From Pirellulales bacterium (lineage in GTDB: Bacteria > Planctomycetota > Planctomycetia > Pirellulales > JACPPG01): a stretch of 38,791 nt of DNA. Position 1 is the first letter of the stretch. Each line of letters begins with the position of its first letter. Both the position numbers and the translations under genes were made by a program. The stretch spans positions 1 to 38,791 of the forward strand of contig DASZWQ010000197.1 in NCBI GenBank assembly GCA_035546535.1. Direction: 5' to 3'. The notes beneath the pieces are model-generated. The model was not told where the DNA came from, did not search any database, and worked only from the letters and a program-made list of their open reading frames with translations. Positions 5,060 through 35,913 of this stretch are shown here, in pieces.

Positions 5060-6733
5060 TTATCGCGCGGCTTTCAAACGCCGAACGAACTCGGCCGCCG
5101 CCTGCACCGGATCGGCGGCGGCAACAACGGCTCCGCTCACGGCAACCCGCGAGAATCCGGCCTGCAACACTTCGTCGAGGTTCGTCAGGTCAACACCGCC
5201 GATGGCAAACGCCGGCAAGCGAATTCTCGACGCCACATCGCGAAGCAACTCTACACCAGTGAAAGCTTCGAATTGCTTGGTTTTCGAGGGAAAAGTCGGT
5301 CCAACGCCGATATAGTCGGCTCCCTCGAACACCGCCTGGTGGGCTTGGGCGAGCGAATGCGTCGAGCGCCCGATTAGCGCCCGAGGTCCGAGGATGGCCC
5401 GCGCGGCCGAGATCGACAGATCGTCCTGGCCGAGATGTACGCCATCGGCGTGCGCGGCTGCGGCAATATCCGCGCGGTCATTGATGATGGCAAGAGTGCC
5501 ACGGGCCCTGGTACGCGCCTGCAAAAAGACGGCCCAGGCGAGCAGTTCCCGATCCGTGAGTTTCTTGTCGCGCAACTGAATCATGCCCACACCAGCCGCG
5601 ACTAGCTTGTCGACGAGTTCCGTGAATGCCAGTAAATTACCGCGGCAGCCGTCGATAAGCACGCACAGCCGTACCGCTTCGAGCCGCTGGGCGATCGATT
5701 GCGCTGCGTCAACCGCCTGTTCCAGCGTGTACGCGCGATAGCGAAGGCGCTCGAATATCGCGGCCGTGTCTGGTTCAGTAACCTTCGCGTATTCTTCCAG
5801 GCTGCGCAATGCCTCCTGCAGCCGTTTCCAGTTCGCCGTTAGCACGGCTGCGAGATCCGCCCGCTCAAATTCGGTATCGGTGGCGATCGTGATGCCGACG
5901 TCGCGGAGCGTGTCGCGGGAGGCCAACATGTCACCGTGCGCAAATGGCTGGAGCGCTCGCGCCAGCTCGTGCCGCAGGTGCTTGAGCTCGCTCGTCAGGT
6001 CTCGATGGTCGAGAACCAAACGCACGAAATCCTCGACGACGCGCAAGCCCTCGCGGGCTCGGTTGGCCGCCGCGTCGATCACACGCAGCAAACGGGCGTC
6101 CAAGTGTGGAGCGTGTGTTGTTTCGGTAATCCTTCTCCCCTCACCGGAAGAGGGTTGGATCGAGGGAGTCTCCCCATCGTCGGAGATTTGTTCACTGGCA
6201 ACTGCACCGCCACGAGCCGCAGCCAGCACCTCGGCCGCGACTTCTTCCACGGCTTCTGTGGCGGCGTCACGAATCTCGGGACCGGCGTCGAGCGCGACCG
6301 GTCCCGGCTCATGCCCATAGAGGTCGTGGATCTGCTTTTCGAGCTCGTCGGCGCGGAGGCCGTGCTCGGCGAGCCAATCGGCGGTCTCTCCCGGGGCCGC
6401 TACGAGTCCGAGCAGCAAATGCTCGGTCGCCAGCGCCAAGGGGCGCGGATAGGCCCAGAGTCGATCGACGGCCGCATTGATGGCCGCGGCCACGGCGGGA
6501 GAAAAATCACGCCGCGCGCCATTGGCGCTTGGCTGCAGGCTGGGCCAACGCTCTTTAACTTGTGCCTGGCCCACGCCGCGCGTTAGCAGCATCTGCGCGG
6601 CGCGGCATTCTTCCTCGGCCAGGAGGCCCAGAAGCAGCTCGGGCGCATCCAATTCGCCACGATCGGCGCGACTGCTCCAGCCGGCAGCTTCGGCAAGCGC
6701 TCGTTCGGCGGCGGCGGTAAACGACCAGGTCAT
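5060..6733 (-). CDS. thiE: Clp N-terminal domain fused to thiamine-phosphate synthase
   Basis: One uninterrupted 557-residue frame. Residues 1-142 form a Clp N-domain made of two repeats (FTAAAERALAEAAG..LLLGLLAEEE; FSPAVAAAINAA..EHLLLGLVAAPG). Residues 145-208 are an acidic, low-complexity linker. Residues 210-345 match the helical domain found ahead of ThiE in long thiamine-phosphate synthases (NRAREGLRVVEDFVRLVLD, LKHLRHEL). Residues 355-557 are ThiE, with IQLRDK, IINDR, HADGVHLGQDD, IGVGPTFPSKTK and FAIGGV all intact, so it should join HMP-PP and thiazole phosphate to make thiamine monophosphate. No AAA+ module is present. clpC, with a similar N-domain, lies 1 kb away and is divergent. 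No Shine-Dalgarno is obvious before the ATG. The enzyme half is certain; what the Clp domain does is unknown. Confidence 0.92.
   Translation of the reverse strand: MTWSFTAAAERALAEAAGWSSRADRGELDAPELLLGLLAEEECRAAQMLLTRGVGQAQVKERWPSLQPSANGARRDFSPAVAAAINAAVDRLWAYPRPLALATEHLLLGLVAAPGETADWLAEHGLRADELEKQIHDLYGHEPGPVALDAGPEIRDAATEAVEEVAAEVLAAARGGAVASEQISDDGETPSIQPSSGEGRRITETTHAPHLDARLLRVIDAAANRAREGLRVVEDFVRLVLDHRDLTSELKHLRHELARALQPFAHGDMLASRDTLRDVGITIATDTEFERADLAAVLTANWKRLQEALRSLEEYAKVTEPDTAAIFERLRYRAYTLEQAVDAAQSIAQRLEAVRLCVLIDGCRGNLLAFTELVDKLVAAGVGMIQLRDKKLTDRELLAWAVFLQARTRARGTLAIINDRADIAAAAHADGVHLGQDDLSISAARAILGPRALIGRSTHSLAQAHQAVFEGADYIGVGPTFPSKTKQFEAFTGVELLRDVASRIRLPAFAIGGVDLTNLDEVLQAGFSRVAVSGAVVAAADPVQAAAEFVRRLKAAR
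6131..6170. repeat. REP-like palindromic tract inside the fusion gene linker
   Basis: On the minus strand CCCTCTTCC and GGTGAGGGGAGAAGG form an imperfect dyad, flanked by CTCCCTCGATCCAA. It resembles the dispersed CCCTCTCCC/GGGAGAGGG elements of many GC-rich genomes. Here it is read in frame and supplies linker residues around 190-203 (SIQPSSGEGRRITE). Copy number elsewhere cannot be seen from this window. Confidence 0.4.
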
Positions 6734-21025: not shown

Positions 21026-21517
21026 ATGAATGCGACCCTTTCAGATTTTGACGCCGTAGCACGCTTATTGGCCGAGTATGCCGAACGGCGCGTGTTTCAG
21101 GGCTTCAGCCGAGGCCCGGCGTCGCGCTCGAAGGCGCGTTTTCAGATTGCCTGGCATCGTGGGCGCGTGTTCGAACTCACGCTCGATGTCACATCAAACA
21201 CGTTGCGTCTGCCCGAACTATTGACCGGCGTCCCGGTAGACTCCACGATGTACCGGGAATTGAAGGCGTTCATAAGGTCGCGGCAAGCCGACGACTTGCC
21301 TGAGCATCGGCGCCTCGACACCAGTCGTTTACAGGCACGCACCTACTGTCGCTGCGGGAGCATTTTGCTCGTGATGAAATCGCTTGACGGCGACAACGAA
21401 TACGCGGCCCGCAAGCTGGTGCATCTGGTCAACGAGATCTACCTGACGTTCTTATCCGAGGGCCCGTACCTTGATTACATGATCGAAACCTTCAACCTCG
21501 ATCCCGACCGGATGTAG
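21026..21517 (+). CDS. Conserved-looking hypothetical protein
   Basis: 163-residue soluble protein, family not recognised. It has an alpha/beta character: an N-terminal helix (FDAVARLLAEYAERRVF), strands in the middle (ARFQIAWHRGRVFELTLDV), a Cys pair in TYCRCGSILLVMKS, and a C-terminal helix (KLVHLVNEIYLTFL) ending in an acidic tail. This order loosely recalls YbjN-like folds, but I cannot confirm it. It is 86 bases upstream of the cytochrome c gene on the same strand. Codon use and protein composition look genuine. The ATG has no strong Shine-Dalgarno. Confidence 0.7.
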   Translation: MNATLSDFDAVARLLAEYAERRVFQGFSRGPASRSKARFQIAWHRGRVFELTLDVTSNTLRLPELLTGVPVDSTMYRELKAFIRSRQADDLPEHRRLDTSRLQARTYCRCGSILLVMKSLDGDNEYAARKLVHLVNEIYLTFLSEGPYLDYMIETFNLDPDRM

Positions 21518-21603: not shown

Positions 21604-22056
21604 GTGAGGCCGCGACGATTCCCCATCGAGGTTCTTCTGCTTGCCGGAGCGTTCTTCGGCGCGGCGCACTGGGCCGCCATTGCGGCATCCGACGACGCGC
21701 CCGCGACCAAGCGGATAACGATGGAAGAGGCGAAAAAGCTGAAGTCGCCGGTACCCTTTACCAAGGCATCGATCGCCCGCGGCAAGATTCTGTACTCGCG
21801 GGACTGTACCGAATGCCACGGCGCCGACGGCAAGTCCTTGGTCGACGTCGTCGCCAATGCCACGGATCTGACCGATCCCAAAGCATGGAAAAGCGGTACC
21901 AGCGAAGGCGAGGTCTATCGCAGCATCCGCGACGGGGCGGGCGAGGCCATGCCACCGTTCGTCGACAAGGTGTCCAAAGAAGAGGATCTCTGGCACCTCA
22001 CGAATTTTCTGCGCAGCCTATGGCCCGATTCCGCACGCCCCAAGTTGCAAGAATAA
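21604..22056 (+). CDS. Exported monohaem cytochrome c
   Basis: 150-residue periplasmic class I-type c cytochrome. A signal peptide (hydrophobic stretch about residues 8-26) is followed by one haem site C68-T-E-C71-H72. M116 in GEAMPPF is the likely sixth ligand. The C-terminal helix (EEDLWHLTNFLRSLW) is typical of the fold. It starts at GTG 21604 with AGGAA about 8 bases upstream. The stop is 49 bases before the ThDP-enzyme gene, strongly suggesting an operon and an electron-transfer role for that enzyme. The redox partner is inferred, not shown. Confidence 0.9.
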   Translation: MRPRRFPIEVLLLAGAFFGAAHWAAIAASDDAPATKRITMEEAKKLKSPVPFTKASIARGKILYSRDCTECHGADGKSLVDVVANATDLTDPKAWKSGTSEGEVYRSIRDGAGEAMPPFVDKVSKEEDLWHLTNFLRSLWPDSARPKLQE

Positions 22057-22105
22057 ACGCGCCCTGAATGCATCGTTCGCCCCACAGCCCAGGTGGAACC
22101 CTGAC

Positions 22106-24085
22106 ATGAAAAAGCCATCCGCCGAAAAACGCGCCGAAGCAAGTCCGAAGCAAACCGTAGATTCTTCGCGCCGCTCGTTCCTGCTTTCTTCGGCCGCCGG
22201 AGCCGGCGCCATGGTGGCCGGCATGGTTGTGGAGTCGAAGGCCAGCGTCCCGGCGGCCAGCATTCCCTCGATCGCCATTCCCAAGGAAGTGCTGGAATCG
22301 ATCAAAGAAGCGCCGAAGCCCGGCTCCTTCGAAGGGCAAGGCATGACCGGCGCGGAAGTGTTCGCCAAGCTTTGCAAGGATGAGGATCTCGCCGCGCTCT
22401 TTTGCTGCCCCGGCAATTACACAGTAATCAATGCCATCGCCGCCGCCGGCGTGCCGGCCTACGGCGGACGGTGCGAGGGCTCGATGGCCGCCGCGGCTGA
22501 CGGCTTTTCGCGCGCCACCGGCGAAGTCACGGCCTGCTCCGGCACCGAAGGGCCAGGCCTGACGAACATGATCATGAACATCGCGTCGGCCGCCGCGGCT
22601 CGCACGCCACTGTTGGTTCTGGCCAGCAACATGCAGTTGGCGGGCGACGATCGCGAGACCTTCATTCAGACCGGCTATCAGCAGCCGCTGACAACCGGCA
22701 TGAAGAAATACGGCAAACGGCTTATCGCGCCCGAGCGTGTGTGGGAGTACGGCGCGTACGCGTTTCGCAATTTGAAGTCGGGGGTCCCTGGCCCCGTGCA
22801 CCTCGACTTCCCGGGCGAGGTGGCCCGCGCCAAGTTCACCGACCCGTCGAAGCTGAAGGACTATTACGGCAAGGACAAATATCGCACCGAGTCGCAAGCT
22901 ACACCGGCGAAGAAGGACGTCGAAAAAGCGCTCGACATGATCGCCAAGGCCGAGCGGCCCTTGTTGATCGCCGGCCAGGGCGTGTTCCAGAACAAGGCCT
23001 GGGAACCGCTCTTGAAGGCTGCCGAGAAGAACGAACTGGCTGTCGTTACCTCGGGCCCGACGCGTGGTCATTTCCCGGACGACCATCGTTTGTCGGCGGC
23101 GCTATCGCCCGACGCCGTGATGAGTGCGGACCTGGTGATTTTCGTCGGTCAATATTGCATGCCCAGCCCAGGCGAGTACCGCTGCAACCCTGATGTGAAG
23201 ACAATCCGCGTTCACCCGGTGGCCGAGGATTTGGGGCGCAACTGGCCGCTCGATTTGGGCATTGTCAGCAGCGAAGGACCATTTCTCGAAGCCTTGGCCG
23301 ATCTATTGCCGGCGCGCAAACGCGACAAATGGATCGACGAGTTGGCTGGTGCGCGGCAAAAGTTCGAAAAGATGCTCGCCGACCAGCACGCGCTGGGCGT
23401 GAAGTACAGCAAGGACACCAACCACTTGCACCCGGCGGCTCTCTGCAAGGAAGTGACCGACTTCTTTTACAAGGGAGATATCGATCCCAAGCAAACGGTC
23501 CTCGGCGGCGGTGGCTGGACAATCGGCGTTCACATCGGCCGCTGGCAACGCGCTTATCGGCCGGGCCAAGGCATCGTTTGTCCGTATCAATACGGTGCCA
23601 TCGGACCCGATCTCGCGATGATGATTGGCGCGAGCGCGGCCGTGCAGCGCGGCGTGGGCCCCCAAGCTCCTTACAAGGGCGCGCCCACGGTCTGCGTCAG
23701 TAGCGATGCGGGGATCGCCTACAGCTTGTTCGAGCTGGACACCGCCGCCAAGTACAAGCTTCCCGTGATCGGCATCATCTACAACAACGACTGCTGGGGC
23801 ATGTGGCCCAGCGCCGTTTCCTCGGCCCGATCGATGCACCTCTATCTGTTCCAGCAGAACTTGCGCTACGACGAAATGGCGCAAGGGCTCGGCGCTCGCG
23901 GCGAGTACGTCCGCACGCCGGAGGAGCTGCGCGAGGCGCTACACCGCAGTTACGCGGCGGCGACGAACGAAAGCATGTCGACGCTGATCAACTGCCAAGG
24001 GATGAAGGACTTCACCTCGGCCAAGAACTACCCGCCGGGCGTGGCCCTGAATCCCGAACCCGGCTGTGGCGCCGTCGCACACTAA
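22106..24085 (+). CDS. Tat-exported thiamine-diphosphate-dependent enzyme
   Basis: 659-residue member of the acetolactate synthase/pyruvate oxidase-like ThDP family with an added N-terminal twin-arginine signal (R22-R23 in SSRRSFLLSSAAGAGAMVAG). The N-terminal pyrimidine domain has the activating glutamate E124 in RCEGSMAAAADGFSRATG. A central domain (about 265-420) follows. The C-terminal pyrophosphate domain has D534 in SSDAGIAYS and N560-N561 in IIYNND, in the usual Mg/ThDP arrangement, but SDA replaces the common GDG. Tat export of a folded, cofactor-loaded enzyme is consistent with a ThDP protein working outside the cytoplasm. AGGTGG precedes the ATG. The substrate is unknown; the adjacent cytochrome c suggests oxidative decarboxylation. 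Confidence 0.88.
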   Translation: MKKPSAEKRAEASPKQTVDSSRRSFLLSSAAGAGAMVAGMVVESKASVPAASIPSIAIPKEVLESIKEAPKPGSFEGQGMTGAEVFAKLCKDEDLAALFCCPGNYTVINAIAAAGVPAYGGRCEGSMAAAADGFSRATGEVTACSGTEGPGLTNMIMNIASAAAARTPLLVLASNMQLAGDDRETFIQTGYQQPLTTGMKKYGKRLIAPERVWEYGAYAFRNLKSGVPGPVHLDFPGEVARAKFTDPSKLKDYYGKDKYRTESQATPAKKDVEKALDMIAKAERPLLIAGQGVFQNKAWEPLLKAAEKNELAVVTSGPTRGHFPDDHRLSAALSPDAVMSADLVIFVGQYCMPSPGEYRCNPDVKTIRVHPVAEDLGRNWPLDLGIVSSEGPFLEALADLLPARKRDKWIDELAGARQKFEKMLADQHALGVKYSKDTNHLHPAALCKEVTDFFYKGDIDPKQTVLGGGGWTIGVHIGRWQRAYRPGQGIVCPYQYGAIGPDLAMMIGASAAVQRGVGPQAPYKGAPTVCVSSDAGIAYSLFELDTAAKYKLPVIGIIYNNDCWGMWPSAVSSARSMHLYLFQQNLRYDEMAQGLGARGEYVRTPEELREALHRSYAAATNESMSTLINCQGMKDFTSAKNYPPGVALNPEPGCGAVAH

Positions 24086-26812: not shown

Positions 26813-28198
26813 TCAGGCGATCAATGCCTCAATGGGCGTTCCCTCGGTGATCCGATGCGGCCGGTCGGTCGCATCCTTCAGCACCAGATCGTGCCGGATG
26901 CCGAGAATCTCGTAAAGCGTGGCCGCGATGTCGTCAGGCCGCGCGGGCTGATCCTTCACCTGCGCCCCGAGGCGGTCCGTCGCGCCGACGATCGTTCCGG
27001 CGCGAATGCCGGCGCCGGCCCACAATACGGAATACGCCTGTCCCCAATGATCGCGCCCGCCGTCCCGATTCTGATTGATCTTCGGAGTTCGGCCCATTTC
27101 CCCCATGACGATGATCAGCGTTTCGGCAAGTAGACCGCGCTGGTCGAGATCGCTGATGAGAGCCGACAGTCCCTGGTCCAACTCCGGCATCAGGTTTTGA
27201 TCGTACAGTCGGAAATGGTCCTGATGCGTGTCCCAAATCTGAAAAGCGGAGAGGATCGTGTTTTCGGGATTCGAAACGGCGTTGGCCGTGACGAAGCGCA
27301 CGCCGGCCTCGATCAAGCGCCGCGACAATAGCAGCACCTGTCCCATCTCCGACCGGCCATAGCGTTCGTGCATTTCTGCCGGTTCACGGCTGACATCAAA
27401 GGCAGCTTGCGTCGCCGGAGACAAGATCATATTCAGCGCTTCGGCTTGATGGGCGTTCCAGCTCGTTTGCTCGGCGAGCGTGTGCGCTGCAGCGAAAGTC
27501 TCGTCCATTTTGCCCAGTAGCTGCACGCGCTCGCGCATGCCGTTGGCGCTGACGCCCTCCGGCAGCCCTAGCCCCTCAGGGATTGGCAGTTTTCCCTCCC
27601 ACTTGGGCGAGCGTGCCATCATGCGATTGCGCACCGCCGGGAGCGGATCGTATTGGTTCCCCATCCAACCGCCCCCGGCGCTCGGCGTGGGAAATCCCAT
27701 GTCGAACAGGAACGTCGGCGTCAGCACGAAAGGAGGCATGCCGCGCACTTTGGGCAGCACGCGCGCCACGACCGAGCCGTACGTCGGGTGATCCGCCGGC
27801 GTCGGCCGGATATTGGCATCGCTTCCCGGTGAGTGCCCGCTCAGCGCGTAAGCAGCGCTGCTGTTGTGAGCATTAAAGGGATGCGTGGCCGATCGTAGGA
27901 TGGCGAACTTGTGGGCCAGCTTTGCCAGCCGTGGCAGCTTCTCGGTGATGAGAATGCCTGGCACCGACGTTTCGATGGGTCGATAAGGCCCGCGGATCTC
28001 GACGGGCGCGTCCGGTTTCAGATCGAACGTATCATGCTGCGACGGTCCGCCATTGAGAAAGACAAAGATGCAATGGCGGGCTTTGGCCGCGGCAGTAGCG
28101 AGTGCTTGGGCGCGTAACTGATCGGCCAGCGTCACGCCCCCCAGCGACAGGGCGCCGAACCGCAGCAATTCGCGCCGCGTCAAGTGTGCCCTGTTCAT
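26813..28198 (-). CDS. Tat-exported DUF1501 protein (first of two in the cluster)
   Basis: 461-residue exported protein of the DUF1501 family, abundant in planctomycetes and related in fold to alkaline-phosphatase/sulfatase-like enzymes. The twin-arginine signal is LTRRELLRFGALSLGG (R8-R9). Family landmarks are FVFLNGGPSQHDTFDLKP, AHNSSAAYALSGHSPG, QIWDTHQDHFRLYDQ, MGEMGRTPKIN and GGRDHWGQAYSV; the His/Asp residues in these would form a metal site if the fold holds. AAGGAG lies 9 bases before the ATG. It follows another DUF1501 gene by 70 bases. No DUF1549/DUF1553 partner, the usual neighbour, is present. Function is not established for the family. Confidence 0.92.
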   Translation of the reverse strand: MNRAHLTRRELLRFGALSLGGVTLADQLRAQALATAAAKARHCIFVFLNGGPSQHDTFDLKPDAPVEIRGPYRPIETSVPGILITEKLPRLAKLAHKFAILRSATHPFNAHNSSAAYALSGHSPGSDANIRPTPADHPTYGSVVARVLPKVRGMPPFVLTPTFLFDMGFPTPSAGGGWMGNQYDPLPAVRNRMMARSPKWEGKLPIPEGLGLPEGVSANGMRERVQLLGKMDETFAAAHTLAEQTSWNAHQAEALNMILSPATQAAFDVSREPAEMHERYGRSEMGQVLLLSRRLIEAGVRFVTANAVSNPENTILSAFQIWDTHQDHFRLYDQNLMPELDQGLSALISDLDQRGLLAETLIIVMGEMGRTPKINQNRDGGRDHWGQAYSVLWAGAGIRAGTIVGATDRLGAQVKDQPARPDDIAATLYEILGIRHDLVLKDATDRPHRITEGTPIEALIA

Positions 28199-28268
28199 GG
28201 AAGAATTCTCCTTGTCCCGACGGCAACACCATTGACCTTCAAAGGCGTTGGCCGATGCACACCTCGCC

Positions 28269-29606
28269 TTAGAGCAGCGCGCTCATTGGCAATCGTTCGT
28301 CGAGCACGACCTGCGGTCGACCGTCGTAATCGGGAATCGTGGTGCCCGGGTCGATGCCCAATTGATGATAGACCGTGGCCAGCACGCTTTGCATACCGAT
28401 GGGATTGCCGATGATTCGCTCGCCGCGGCCGTCGGTGGCGCCAATGATCTGGCCCGTCTGCAAGCCGCCGCCGGCTAACCACAAAAAGCCGGCCTCGGGC
28501 CAATGGCCGCGACCATCAGGCGTCTGATCGCCGATACGCGGCGTACGGCCGAATTCGCCCCCCATCACGATCACCACGTCGTCGAGCAAGCTGCGCTGGT
28601 CCAGGTCGGTGACCAGGGCATGCAGTGCCTGATCGAGCGGCGGCAGCATTTCTCGCAGGGCGATGAAATTCTGCGCGTGCGTATCCCAGCCATGCACCCC
28701 CACAGTAACGACCGATACGCCGGCCTCGATCAAACGCCGCGCTAGCAAAAGTGATCGGCCTGGATGAGGGCCGTGGCGGTATTTTCCTTCGCCGTAGCGG
28801 GCGCGAGCCTCGGGCGTTTCCTTTTCGAGATCAAACGCATCGCGGACTCGCGTCGACGTGATGATCTCCATGGCGCGAGCGCGGAAAAGCTCCACGCCGC
28901 GTGCGGCCTCGGCTTCGATCCGGCGGCGCGCACCGTCGAGCGAGGCCAGCAAGTCGTATCGATCGGCCAGGCGATCACCGCTGAGCGCGCCGTTGCGCCC
29001 CATGTTTTCAATCGCCTCACGAGGGCTCGAAGAGCCGACGCGCACCGGCTCGTGCTCGACACCGGCGTAATAGGCCCGCTCCCAGTCGTGGTGATTCTCG
29101 ATGCTGACATAGGGAGGCATGCCGCCCGTCCCGCCGCGCAGGCGGCTGACGACCGATCCGACCGCGGGGCGGCGGGCCTCGCCCGGCACTGAAGCGCGCG
29201 GCGATTCCTGCCACGGATAGCCGCTATAGAACATATTGCCCGTGTGCAAGTTCGCGACCTGAGCGCCGCGCAGAATCGCGAACTTGTCGGCGATCGTGGC
29301 CTGCCGCGGCATCAATTCACAGATCTCGATGCCCGGAACGTTCGTGGCGATCGGATTGAACTCGCCGCGATATTCCGCCGGGGCACCCGGCTTCATGTCG
29401 TACATGTCCAGATGCGACGGTCCGCCGCTCAGGTGGATCATGATCGCCGATTTCGGCCGGCGGCCACTTTCCCCAGCGACCGCGCGCTGTCGCAAGACGT
29501 CCTGTAAGGTCAGGCCGCCCCATGCCAGCGTGCCGACACGCAAAAACCAGCGGCGACTCATGCCCTGGGAAGTACGAAACGGTCGGGGATCGGTGATCGT
29601 GAGCAT
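28269..29606 (-). CDS. Tat-exported DUF1501 protein (second of two in the cluster)
   Basis: 445-residue relative of the downstream gene product. The twin-arginine signal is SRRWFLRVGTLAWGG (R18-R19). Landmarks are IMIHLSGGPSHLDMYDMKPG, VGVHGWDTHAQNF, MGGEFGRTPRIG and GRGHWPEAGF. GAGG precedes the ATG by a short spacer. The two proteins share order of motifs but differ clearly in sequence, so they are old paralogues, not a recent duplication. The pair probably forms one transcript, starting from the region shared with the divergent hydrolase gene. Confidence 0.92.
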   Translation of the reverse strand: MLTITDPRPFRTSQGMSRRWFLRVGTLAWGGLTLQDVLRQRAVAGESGRRPKSAIMIHLSGGPSHLDMYDMKPGAPAEYRGEFNPIATNVPGIEICELMPRQATIADKFAILRGAQVANLHTGNMFYSGYPWQESPRASVPGEARRPAVGSVVSRLRGGTGGMPPYVSIENHHDWERAYYAGVEHEPVRVGSSSPREAIENMGRNGALSGDRLADRYDLLASLDGARRRIEAEAARGVELFRARAMEIITSTRVRDAFDLEKETPEARARYGEGKYRHGPHPGRSLLLARRLIEAGVSVVTVGVHGWDTHAQNFIALREMLPPLDQALHALVTDLDQRSLLDDVVIVMGGEFGRTPRIGDQTPDGRGHWPEAGFLWLAGGGLQTGQIIGATDGRGERIIGNPIGMQSVLATVYHQLGIDPGTTIPDYDGRPQVVLDERLPMSALL

Positions 29607-33612: not shown

Positions 33613-35913
33613 TCAAAGATCCGCGATCCGGTTGACGCCTCCCAGATTCGTAAAAATCTGGTCGACGACCTGCGGCGTTATGCTTTGGCGCCCGAGGGCA
33701 CTTGCCACGGCCAGCGCGAACGGATTCGTGGTAACCGTATCGCTTCCGCCCGAGTTAGCAGTGCCACCGCCGGTGGTGCCACTGCTTCCTGCACCGTTAT
33801 GGGATGCTAGTTCGTCGAGCCAGTTCAGCAGGGCGCTAACCAGCGCGCCGCGCGGGCCCGTTTGCCACCATGACGTACCTGACGTCAGCAACTTGAAGTT
33901 CGCAATGGCCGGACTATTGGGGCCTGCCTGCCCCTTGGTGATATCAACGTCGATGCTGGTCACCGAGCTATTGAGAATGTTGCCGTGCGCTGGGGGAACG
34001 ACCTTTACCGTGTAGTTGCCGGAACCGGCATTCGAAAACTGATAGACGCCGCGCGCGTTGGTCGTCGTCGTATCGACGACCTCGCCATTCTGAATCAACT
34101 CGACAGTCACTCCGGCGAGCGGTGCGGGGAAACCAAGATGATTGGCCCCGCGCGTTCCTAATGTCGGCGCGGTGGTAGCGACGACGGTCCCTTGAATGTT
34201 GCTATAGAAGTGAAACACATCCGCTTGCAGATTCGTGAGCGTCGTATTGCGCTCGATGATTTGCGACAGCGTCGTGTTGTTCAACTGCCGGACCAGGCTG
34301 GCAGGATCGGCATTTTCGTAGAAGAAACGATCGCCATCGCGCAAGGCCTCGAACTGCCGGGCCAGCACCGCTTGCTCGGTTTGACCGAGCGACGAACCGC
34401 GCAGGTGATTCTCAGCCATCAAGCCGACAAACGCCTCGACATTGTTGACGTTGCCGTATAGCTGCTTCAATTGCTGTTGCAGCTGAACGTCGGACGTGAT
34501 CTGCGCGAACGAGGTCACGGGTTTTTCGCCCATAGCAACGCGCAATTGGTTGTAAGTGGGATCGCCTTCGTCCCGACCGCGTTGAATGTCGTCGGCAATC
34601 AGGTCGCTGGCACCGACCTCGACGTTGTTGATCACGGGAGCGTCGGGGAAGAGCGCATTGCGCAGTCCGTCCACCGTCTGCTCGTCCACTTCCTGCGTCA
34701 GATCGGTTGACAGGTACTTGAGGTTGGCCGCCACTTCGCCTGGCTGCGCGACGATTCCCGGCTGAAAGAAGTCCTCGGCCAACGGCAGCGTCGGTAGACT
34801 AGCGATTGCGTTGGCGTTGTTGTCCATGAACTGAACGTCGTCGTCTAGCAACGTGTGCAGCCGGAAGGCGGCGCTCGCGAATTCGACGGAGATGGACGGA
34901 TTGACATTCGGATTATAGCCACGGTAAGGCGTCAGCGCGTTGTTCCCCATGAGCGCCGGCAGCCATTCGTTGTATGTGATCGACTGAATTTCGCCGATCA
35001 CGATTTGCCGCGCTCCCTGATAAAGCTGCTCGTCAGTCCACGTCGGATGCTGCTTGGCCAATTGCGCGGCCTGGTAATTATGCTCTCGGACAAACAACGT
35101 CGTGATATTGCTGAGTTCGACGTTTTCATTGGCCCGAACGTCGCCGGCGGCGAACAAGGAGCTTTCCGGCACGCCCGTGTTGTCGGCCATGTTCAGGCCC
35201 ATGGTGTTGTAGGGGAGCAAATCGCCGGGCGAGGTTTTTAGCTGGCCGCCGCTAAAAGTACGTAGCGCCGCTGCCGTGGCCGCATCGCTGCCGTAGATCA
35301 TGGAACCATCGATGAAGCTCGTGTCCTGGTTGACTTGCTGAGCGGGGTTCGACGTGCTCGTTCCCGTGCCCGGCGCGATCGCGCTACGGTCGAAGGGGAT
35401 CGACAAATTGCCTTGGCCGGTAGGATCGAAGGTCGGATCGCCGGCGGGGATCGGAATATTCATCGACACATCGCTACTCTCGGTCAGATCGATGTCGTGA
35501 TCGATGAACTGCCCCCATGCGTAAACCCAATCGGACAAGGAACGGTTGTTGTCCAGATCCTGCTCAACGCCGTTGAGATCCTGATTGGCGATCAGATTCG
35601 AGATCGCGCGCGCCGAGGGAAGATTTTGCCCATTGGGGGCCGAAATGCCGTCGGCGTAATTCGCCGGTCCAATGCGCGTGAAATTCGTATCCGCGGCGCC
35701 CCAGGTGGGGTTGGCGACGTTGTTGCCAATGCCGTCGATCGGTTCGACGCCTTGCGAACCGACGACTCCCGTCGTGGTGGAGGTCGTGGTGACGGAGAAC
35801 ATCCGCCGCTCTTCGAGTGGTTCGTAGTGCAGGCCGCGGCGCACGCGGCAAGCAGCAGATGCGTTATCTCCGGTGAATAGCTGCGCGACAATCGAACGCA
35901 GGACAAATCTCAT
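33613..35913 (-). CDS. Surface haem peroxidase of the animal (peroxidase-cyclooxygenase) type
   Basis: 766-residue protein. Residues 31-40 (EPLEERRMFS) are the motif that opens many planctomycete surface proteins. The peroxidase domain covers about 55-590: distal H139 in WGQFIDHDIDL, catalytic R276 in FVREHNYQAAQLA, proximal H353 in FRLHTLL. A beta-sandwich of the SdrD/carboxypeptidase-regulatory type follows (about 610-680, GVTVELIQNGEVVDTTTT, ARGVYQFSNAGSGNY). Residues 705-730 are Gly/Ser/Thr-rich. The family oxidises halides, phenols or tyrosines with peroxide; the target here is unknown. GAGGGA is 5 bases before the ATG. No cysteine-rich anchoring domain is seen. Confidence 0.93.
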   Translation of the reverse strand: MRFVLRSIVAQLFTGDNASAACRVRRGLHYEPLEERRMFSVTTTSTTTGVVGSQGVEPIDGIGNNVANPTWGAADTNFTRIGPANYADGISAPNGQNLPSARAISNLIANQDLNGVEQDLDNNRSLSDWVYAWGQFIDHDIDLTESSDVSMNIPIPAGDPTFDPTGQGNLSIPFDRSAIAPGTGTSTSNPAQQVNQDTSFIDGSMIYGSDAATAAALRTFSGGQLKTSPGDLLPYNTMGLNMADNTGVPESSLFAAGDVRANENVELSNITTLFVREHNYQAAQLAKQHPTWTDEQLYQGARQIVIGEIQSITYNEWLPALMGNNALTPYRGYNPNVNPSISVEFASAAFRLHTLLDDDVQFMDNNANAIASLPTLPLAEDFFQPGIVAQPGEVAANLKYLSTDLTQEVDEQTVDGLRNALFPDAPVINNVEVGASDLIADDIQRGRDEGDPTYNQLRVAMGEKPVTSFAQITSDVQLQQQLKQLYGNVNNVEAFVGLMAENHLRGSSLGQTEQAVLARQFEALRDGDRFFYENADPASLVRQLNNTTLSQIIERNTTLTNLQADVFHFYSNIQGTVVATTAPTLGTRGANHLGFPAPLAGVTVELIQNGEVVDTTTTNARGVYQFSNAGSGNYTVKVVPPAHGNILNSSVTSIDVDITKGQAGPNSPAIANFKLLTSGTSWWQTGPRGALVSALLNWLDELASHNGAGSSGTTGGGTANSGGSDTVTTNPFALAVASALGRQSITPQVVDQIFTNLGGVNRIADL

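Follow-up and report, generated by a model that had tools for sequence, protein, structure and literature searches.

Enzymes that depend on ThDP and belong to the acetolactate synthase/pyruvate oxidase/oxalyl-CoA decarboxylase superfamily are normally cytoplasmic. The known pyruvate oxidases (PoxB and the POX of Lactobacillus) are cytoplasmic as well, and they work with FAD and with quinone or O2. 2-Hydroxyacyl-CoA lyase (HACL), oxalyl-CoA decarboxylase (OXC), benzaldehyde lyase and BbmA are also found in the cytoplasm, are non-redox enzymes and have no cytochrome partner. An exported cofactor enzyme that shares its operon with a c-type cytochrome partner and a small cytoplasmic protein is known from the NapA-NapD and TorA-TorD systems, in which the cofactor is molybdopterin. 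The proofreading chaperones of the twin-arginine (Tat) pathway come in unrelated folds, TorD being helical and NapD ferredoxin-like (PMC3712460).

The locus described here resembles the NapA-NapD and TorA-TorD systems in its gene content, but the cofactor of its exported enzyme would be ThDP. It lies in a stretch of 38,791 nucleotides that was analysed as a whole and is called the window below (contig DASZWQ010000197.1 of a Pirellulales bacterium). The enzyme shares its superfamily with pyruvate oxidase, and a respiration-coupled oxidative decarboxylation would follow the same logic; in contrast to the known pyruvate oxidases, it carries a Tat leader and is partnered with a cytochrome c. Searches of open PMC papers gave no description of a ThDP enzyme that is exported or located in the periplasm and connected with Tat or cytochrome c, and the enzyme, the cytochrome and a third gene together point to an electron-delivering oxidation system that is undescribed in those papers.

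All three genes are on the plus strand. The cytochrome c gene (21604-22056) is followed, after a gap of 49 bases, by the ThDP enzyme gene (22106-24085), and these positions were confirmed by an open reading frame check. The third gene (21026-21517) lies upstream of both and encodes a protein of 163 aa. A promoter scan gave no signal exceeding chance. The ThDP enzyme is complete, with 659 aa, and its TPP_enzyme_N, TPP_enzyme_M and TPP_enzyme_C domains each score above the Pfam cut-off. The catalytic Glu124 (22475-22477), which activates ThDP and aligns with the corresponding Glu in known ThDP enzymes, is invariant across 24 aligned homologues, as are Asp534, Asn560 and Asn561 of the Mg/ThDP diphosphate motif (23705-23788), where the usual GDG...NN appears as SDAG ... 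NND. Among the curated NCBIfam models none came near its cut-off (best 165.8 bits vs 539), and the scores for acetolactate synthase, pyruvate oxidase, OXC, HACL and glyoxylate carboligase all fell short, so that the enzyme represents an unnamed family inside the superfamily. The closest PDB relatives by sequence are BbmA, HACL, OXC and benzaldehyde lyase (~20-24% identity), mostly non-redox lyases or decarboxylases. The structure model of the enzyme is poor (pLDDT 59) and too weak for placing cofactors or the cysteines C90 and C100, and its Foldseek matches confirmed the superfamily and nothing finer. These two cysteines (22373-22405) are invariant and belong to the N-terminal ThDP domain, one of them standing just before the PGN loop, which normally lines the active site. 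About 15 kb from the enzyme gene, a ThiD2 domain and thiamine monophosphate synthase are joined in one protein (5063-6733, minus strand); the proximity is probably a coincidence.

The preliminary description had noted a twin-arginine signal on the ThDP enzyme, and comparison with homologues upholds it. The leader (DSSRRSFLLSSAAGAGAMVAGMVV) is of the classical twin-arginine type by eye; with SRRSFLL it fits the S/T-R-R-x-F-L pattern, and an h-region is present. It spans 22163-22240 (SRRSFLLSSAAGAGAMVAGMVV...), with the RR codons at 22169-22174. R22 and R23 are invariant in the 24-row homologue alignment, while the surrounding leader diverges. The Pfam TAT_signal model, a short one of 21 positions, gave 14.7 bits, below its cut-off of 22.7, and Tat export is therefore proposed from the motif and its conservation. 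Of the other copies whose 5' end is intact, nearly all likewise have the RR pair, including two that first appeared to lack it because the gene call had missed it. The exception is a solo copy of the enzyme (L130:1498-3456, minus strand), which has no RR, no third gene and no cytochrome within ~1.5 kb, and which provides a natural test of what the cassette does. At L025 the Tat leader is kept without an adjacent third gene, and the same genome holds another complete cassette. The source genome encodes TatC (5.0e-57), and its other two ThDP enzymes are without a twin-arginine leader. As judged from sequence, export of the enzyme and linkage of the three genes are strongly supported.

The cytochrome gene has a GTG start, and its product is a class I-like cytochrome c by its CxxCH motif and its Pfam scores, both of which are above cut-off (Cytochrome_CBB3, 1.6e-11; Cytochrom_C, 4.6e-9). 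Its reading as an exported monohaem protein was correct, as it has a Sec-type leader and a single haem-binding motif, CTECH (21805-21819), and CxxCH is present in all members of the cytochrome alignment. A survey of the gene pair, which the preliminary description had suggested, was made on a non-redundant set of 35 loci, in which the near-identical L016-L021 were thinned and 34 had upstream sequence. The same cytochrome family stands directly upstream of the enzyme on the same strand at 24 of these 34 loci, and on this conservation across genomes chance was rejected as the explanation of the pair. At five of the remaining ten, other c-type cytochromes are adjacent or near. At four loci, from one acidobacterial clade, a different cytochrome-like gene adjoins the enzyme divergently, on the opposite strand; it encodes a CxxCH domain fused to a helix-hairpin-helix domain (L026:3807-4493, L028:4306-4911, L029:4514-5221 and L030:4324-4773, minus strand). 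At L025 the upstream genes are those of a quinoprotein dehydrogenase and a cytochrome c. No adjacent cytochrome was found at L027, L076, L077, L078, L079 and L130, the last of which stands outside the non-redundant set, which means that the cytochrome is either not obligatory or encoded elsewhere. Since the cytochrome occurs on both sides of the tree, for which only a midpoint root is available, an ancestral enzyme-cytochrome pair with several losses or replacements would be the simplest reading.

The third gene is a tighter partner of the enzyme than the cytochrome is. The suggestion that the hypothetical gene at 21026 may belong to the system was borne out, because a homologue lies beside the ThDP gene at 31 of 32 testable non-redundant loci (L026, L027 and L080, which end at contig edges, were left out of this count). 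Its position is upstream of the cytochrome in planctomycetes and downstream of the enzyme elsewhere, with the linkage kept. In the Terriglobia sample, enzyme and third gene co-occur perfectly, in the identical 12 of 250 genomes, and every copy of the third gene that was examined, in this sample or in the genomes from which the loci come, adjoins a copy of the enzyme. The 163-aa protein belongs to an orphan family: it has no match in Pfam or NCBIfam, where the TorD/NarJ and NapD family signatures are also absent from it, and no signal peptide is seen by eye. Its AF2 model is confident (pLDDT 92.4) and bears a resemblance to type III secretion chaperones and YbjN. The VIA-align comparison with SycT gave a Z of 8.0, which is near background, with an rmsd of 3.5 over 112 aligned residues; however, the top 17 structural rows are mostly of the type III secretion chaperone/YbjN fold class, which makes the fold match credible. 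The likeness to SycT, SicP, CesT, ExsC and YbjN is one of predicted fold, with no sequence similarity, and unlike the setting of those secretion chaperones the cassette contains no type III secretion genes and links the 163-aa gene to a Tat substrate. On the basis of this model, we propose that the protein may be a cytoplasmic, dedicated export chaperone of the ThDP enzyme. It lacks the family signature of TorD or NapD, but known Tat chaperones differ in fold, and a third structural type beside these two is thus conceivable.

A scan of GTDB species genomes gave 28 homologues of the ThDP enzyme with 52-85% identity, from Planctomycetota, Hydrogenedentota, Acidobacteriota and Gammaproteobacteria. 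Their occurrence is patchy: the enzyme was found in 1 of 392 Planctomycetota genomes, in 12 of the 250 genomes of the Terriglobia class sample and in 3 of 244 genomes of the order of Pseudohalioglobus, where Pseudohalioglobus lutimaris HF004 is a named strain that bears the cassette (L009). Such a distribution fits horizontal spread. The pairwise distances of the enzyme, the cytochrome and the third protein correlate with each other (Spearman 0.72-0.79). The neighbouring genes, which were checked for hints of the substrate, include no gene that is constant among the loci; the inconstant ones encode PQQ dehydrogenases, amidohydrolases, a cyclase, an aminotransferase, Lon and NHL proteins.

A second family of ThDP enzymes with a Tat leader (family B) was met just upstream of one of the cassettes, where the enzyme (L007:2166-4073) has its own small cytochrome. 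Family B has 21-24% identity to the window-type enzyme in a joint alignment (24% for the L007 copy), and its nearest matches are PRK08327 and benzoylformate decarboxylase. Of 200 Terriglobia genomes 35 carried it, often more than once, and it was not found in the 246 Planctomycetota genomes searched. At its loci (L007:2166-4073, L083-L102 and L106-L115) a small monohaem cytochrome c usually follows the enzyme. A clear RR leader was seen at 19 of 20 family B loci, L101 being ambiguous, and a small cytochrome c is adjacent at 14 of the 18 with enough flank, two of the 14 being convergent. In wider flanks the third gene was not seen, and no other neighbour is constant. By sequence family B pairs independently with a small cytochrome c, and the recurrence of this arrangement in two distant ThDP families greatly raises the likelihood that exported ThDP chemistry is functionally connected with cytochrome c.

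We hypothesize that the cassette encodes a periplasmic ThDP enzyme that passes the electrons of its Breslow intermediate to cytochrome c, and that its export by Tat is aided by a chaperone. The ThDP enzyme would fold and take up ThDP and Mg in the cytoplasm, where the 163-aa protein would remain and, until the cofactors are in place, probably shield or proofread either the enzyme or its leader. Once folded, the enzyme would cross into the periplasm through the Tat translocase and attack its substrate there. The substrate would most likely be a 2-oxoacid, and the attack would yield an enamine/carbanion (Breslow) intermediate, which the co-encoded cytochrome c would oxidise to release a carboxylic acid and deliver electrons to the respiratory chain. 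Electron transfer to the cytochrome and a 2-oxoacid or an aldehyde as the substrate, as the preliminary description suggested, are plausible. ThDP carbanions are known to reduce external acceptors, among them DCPIP, PMS/MTT and O2 (PMC11908136), and it is therefore chemically reasonable that a haem protein could serve as the acceptor. Together with the view that the cassette of three genes is mobile and inherited as a unit, this explanation has, in our judgement, about an even chance of being right as a whole. It would mean that 2-oxoacids (or related compounds) are oxidised in the periplasm and feed respiration without uptake of the substrate, and that the enzyme and the cytochrome are a natural pair for testing whether a protein partner can oxidise the Breslow intermediate directly. 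The 163-aa protein could prove to be a Tat chaperone of a third structural type, next to TorD and NapD. More tentatively, at somewhat less than an even chance, the system may represent a new class of periplasmic oxidoreductases in which ThDP alone passes electrons directly from a decarboxylated substrate to a haem protein, with a chaperone fold that is new for Tat and a second family that has converged on the same solution.

Other explanations differ mainly in what the enzyme does after export. The exported protein might be a non-redox lyase, decarboxylase or carboligase of the periplasm, the product of which is oxidised by separate periplasmic dehydrogenases (e.g., PQQ-dependent) that use the cytochrome. 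The nearest solved relatives HACL, OXC, benzaldehyde lyase and BbmA would agree with this, and PQQ-type beta-propeller dehydrogenases occur in several loci (L013, L014, L023, L025, L026, L029, L031 and L068), but at most loci, the window included, the cassette consists of enzyme, cytochrome and third gene without a dehydrogenase, and family B is likewise paired with a cytochrome alone; we regard this explanation as less likely than the main one. Lower still is the probability that the enzyme, like pyruvate oxidase, contains FAD and that electrons pass from ThDP via FAD to cytochrome c, which would make it a periplasmic counterpart of PoxB with a soluble cytochrome replacing quinone. TPP_enzyme_M is the FAD-holding domain in pyruvate oxidase and acetolactate synthase, and the ThDP enzyme has it in full and matches pyruvate oxidase models and structures; on the other hand, the score for the pyruvate oxidase NCBIfam model is 100.5 against a cut-off of 742, and the families that match better are not known as flavin oxidases.

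Two further alternatives bear on the third gene and on export itself. The 163-aa protein could be a regulator or another cytoplasmic factor with a YbjN- or MotA-like fold and no chaperone, since the fold comparison also lists YbjN/AmyR, PA14_16140 and MotA. This has a real but minor share of the probability, because secretion chaperones fill most of the top rows, and the way the gene perfectly co-occurs with, and sits beside, a single exported enzyme across distant phyla fits a dedicated partner better. That the leader is vestigial and the ThDP enzyme works in the cytoplasm is by far the least probable of these readings: the usual location of the superfamily and the TAT_signal score would allow it, but an RR pair that stays invariant in 24 sequences although the rest of the leader diverges, the leaderless ThDP paralogues of the source genome and the linkage to the gene of an exported cytochrome all argue against it. 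A periplasmic enzyme that delivers its electrons to cytochrome c remains the reading that we prefer.

Elsewhere in the window, the minus strand encodes a tandem pair of DUF1501 proteins (26816-29606), which is typical of planctomycetes, and a bacterial protein with an animal-type haem peroxidase domain (33616-35913).
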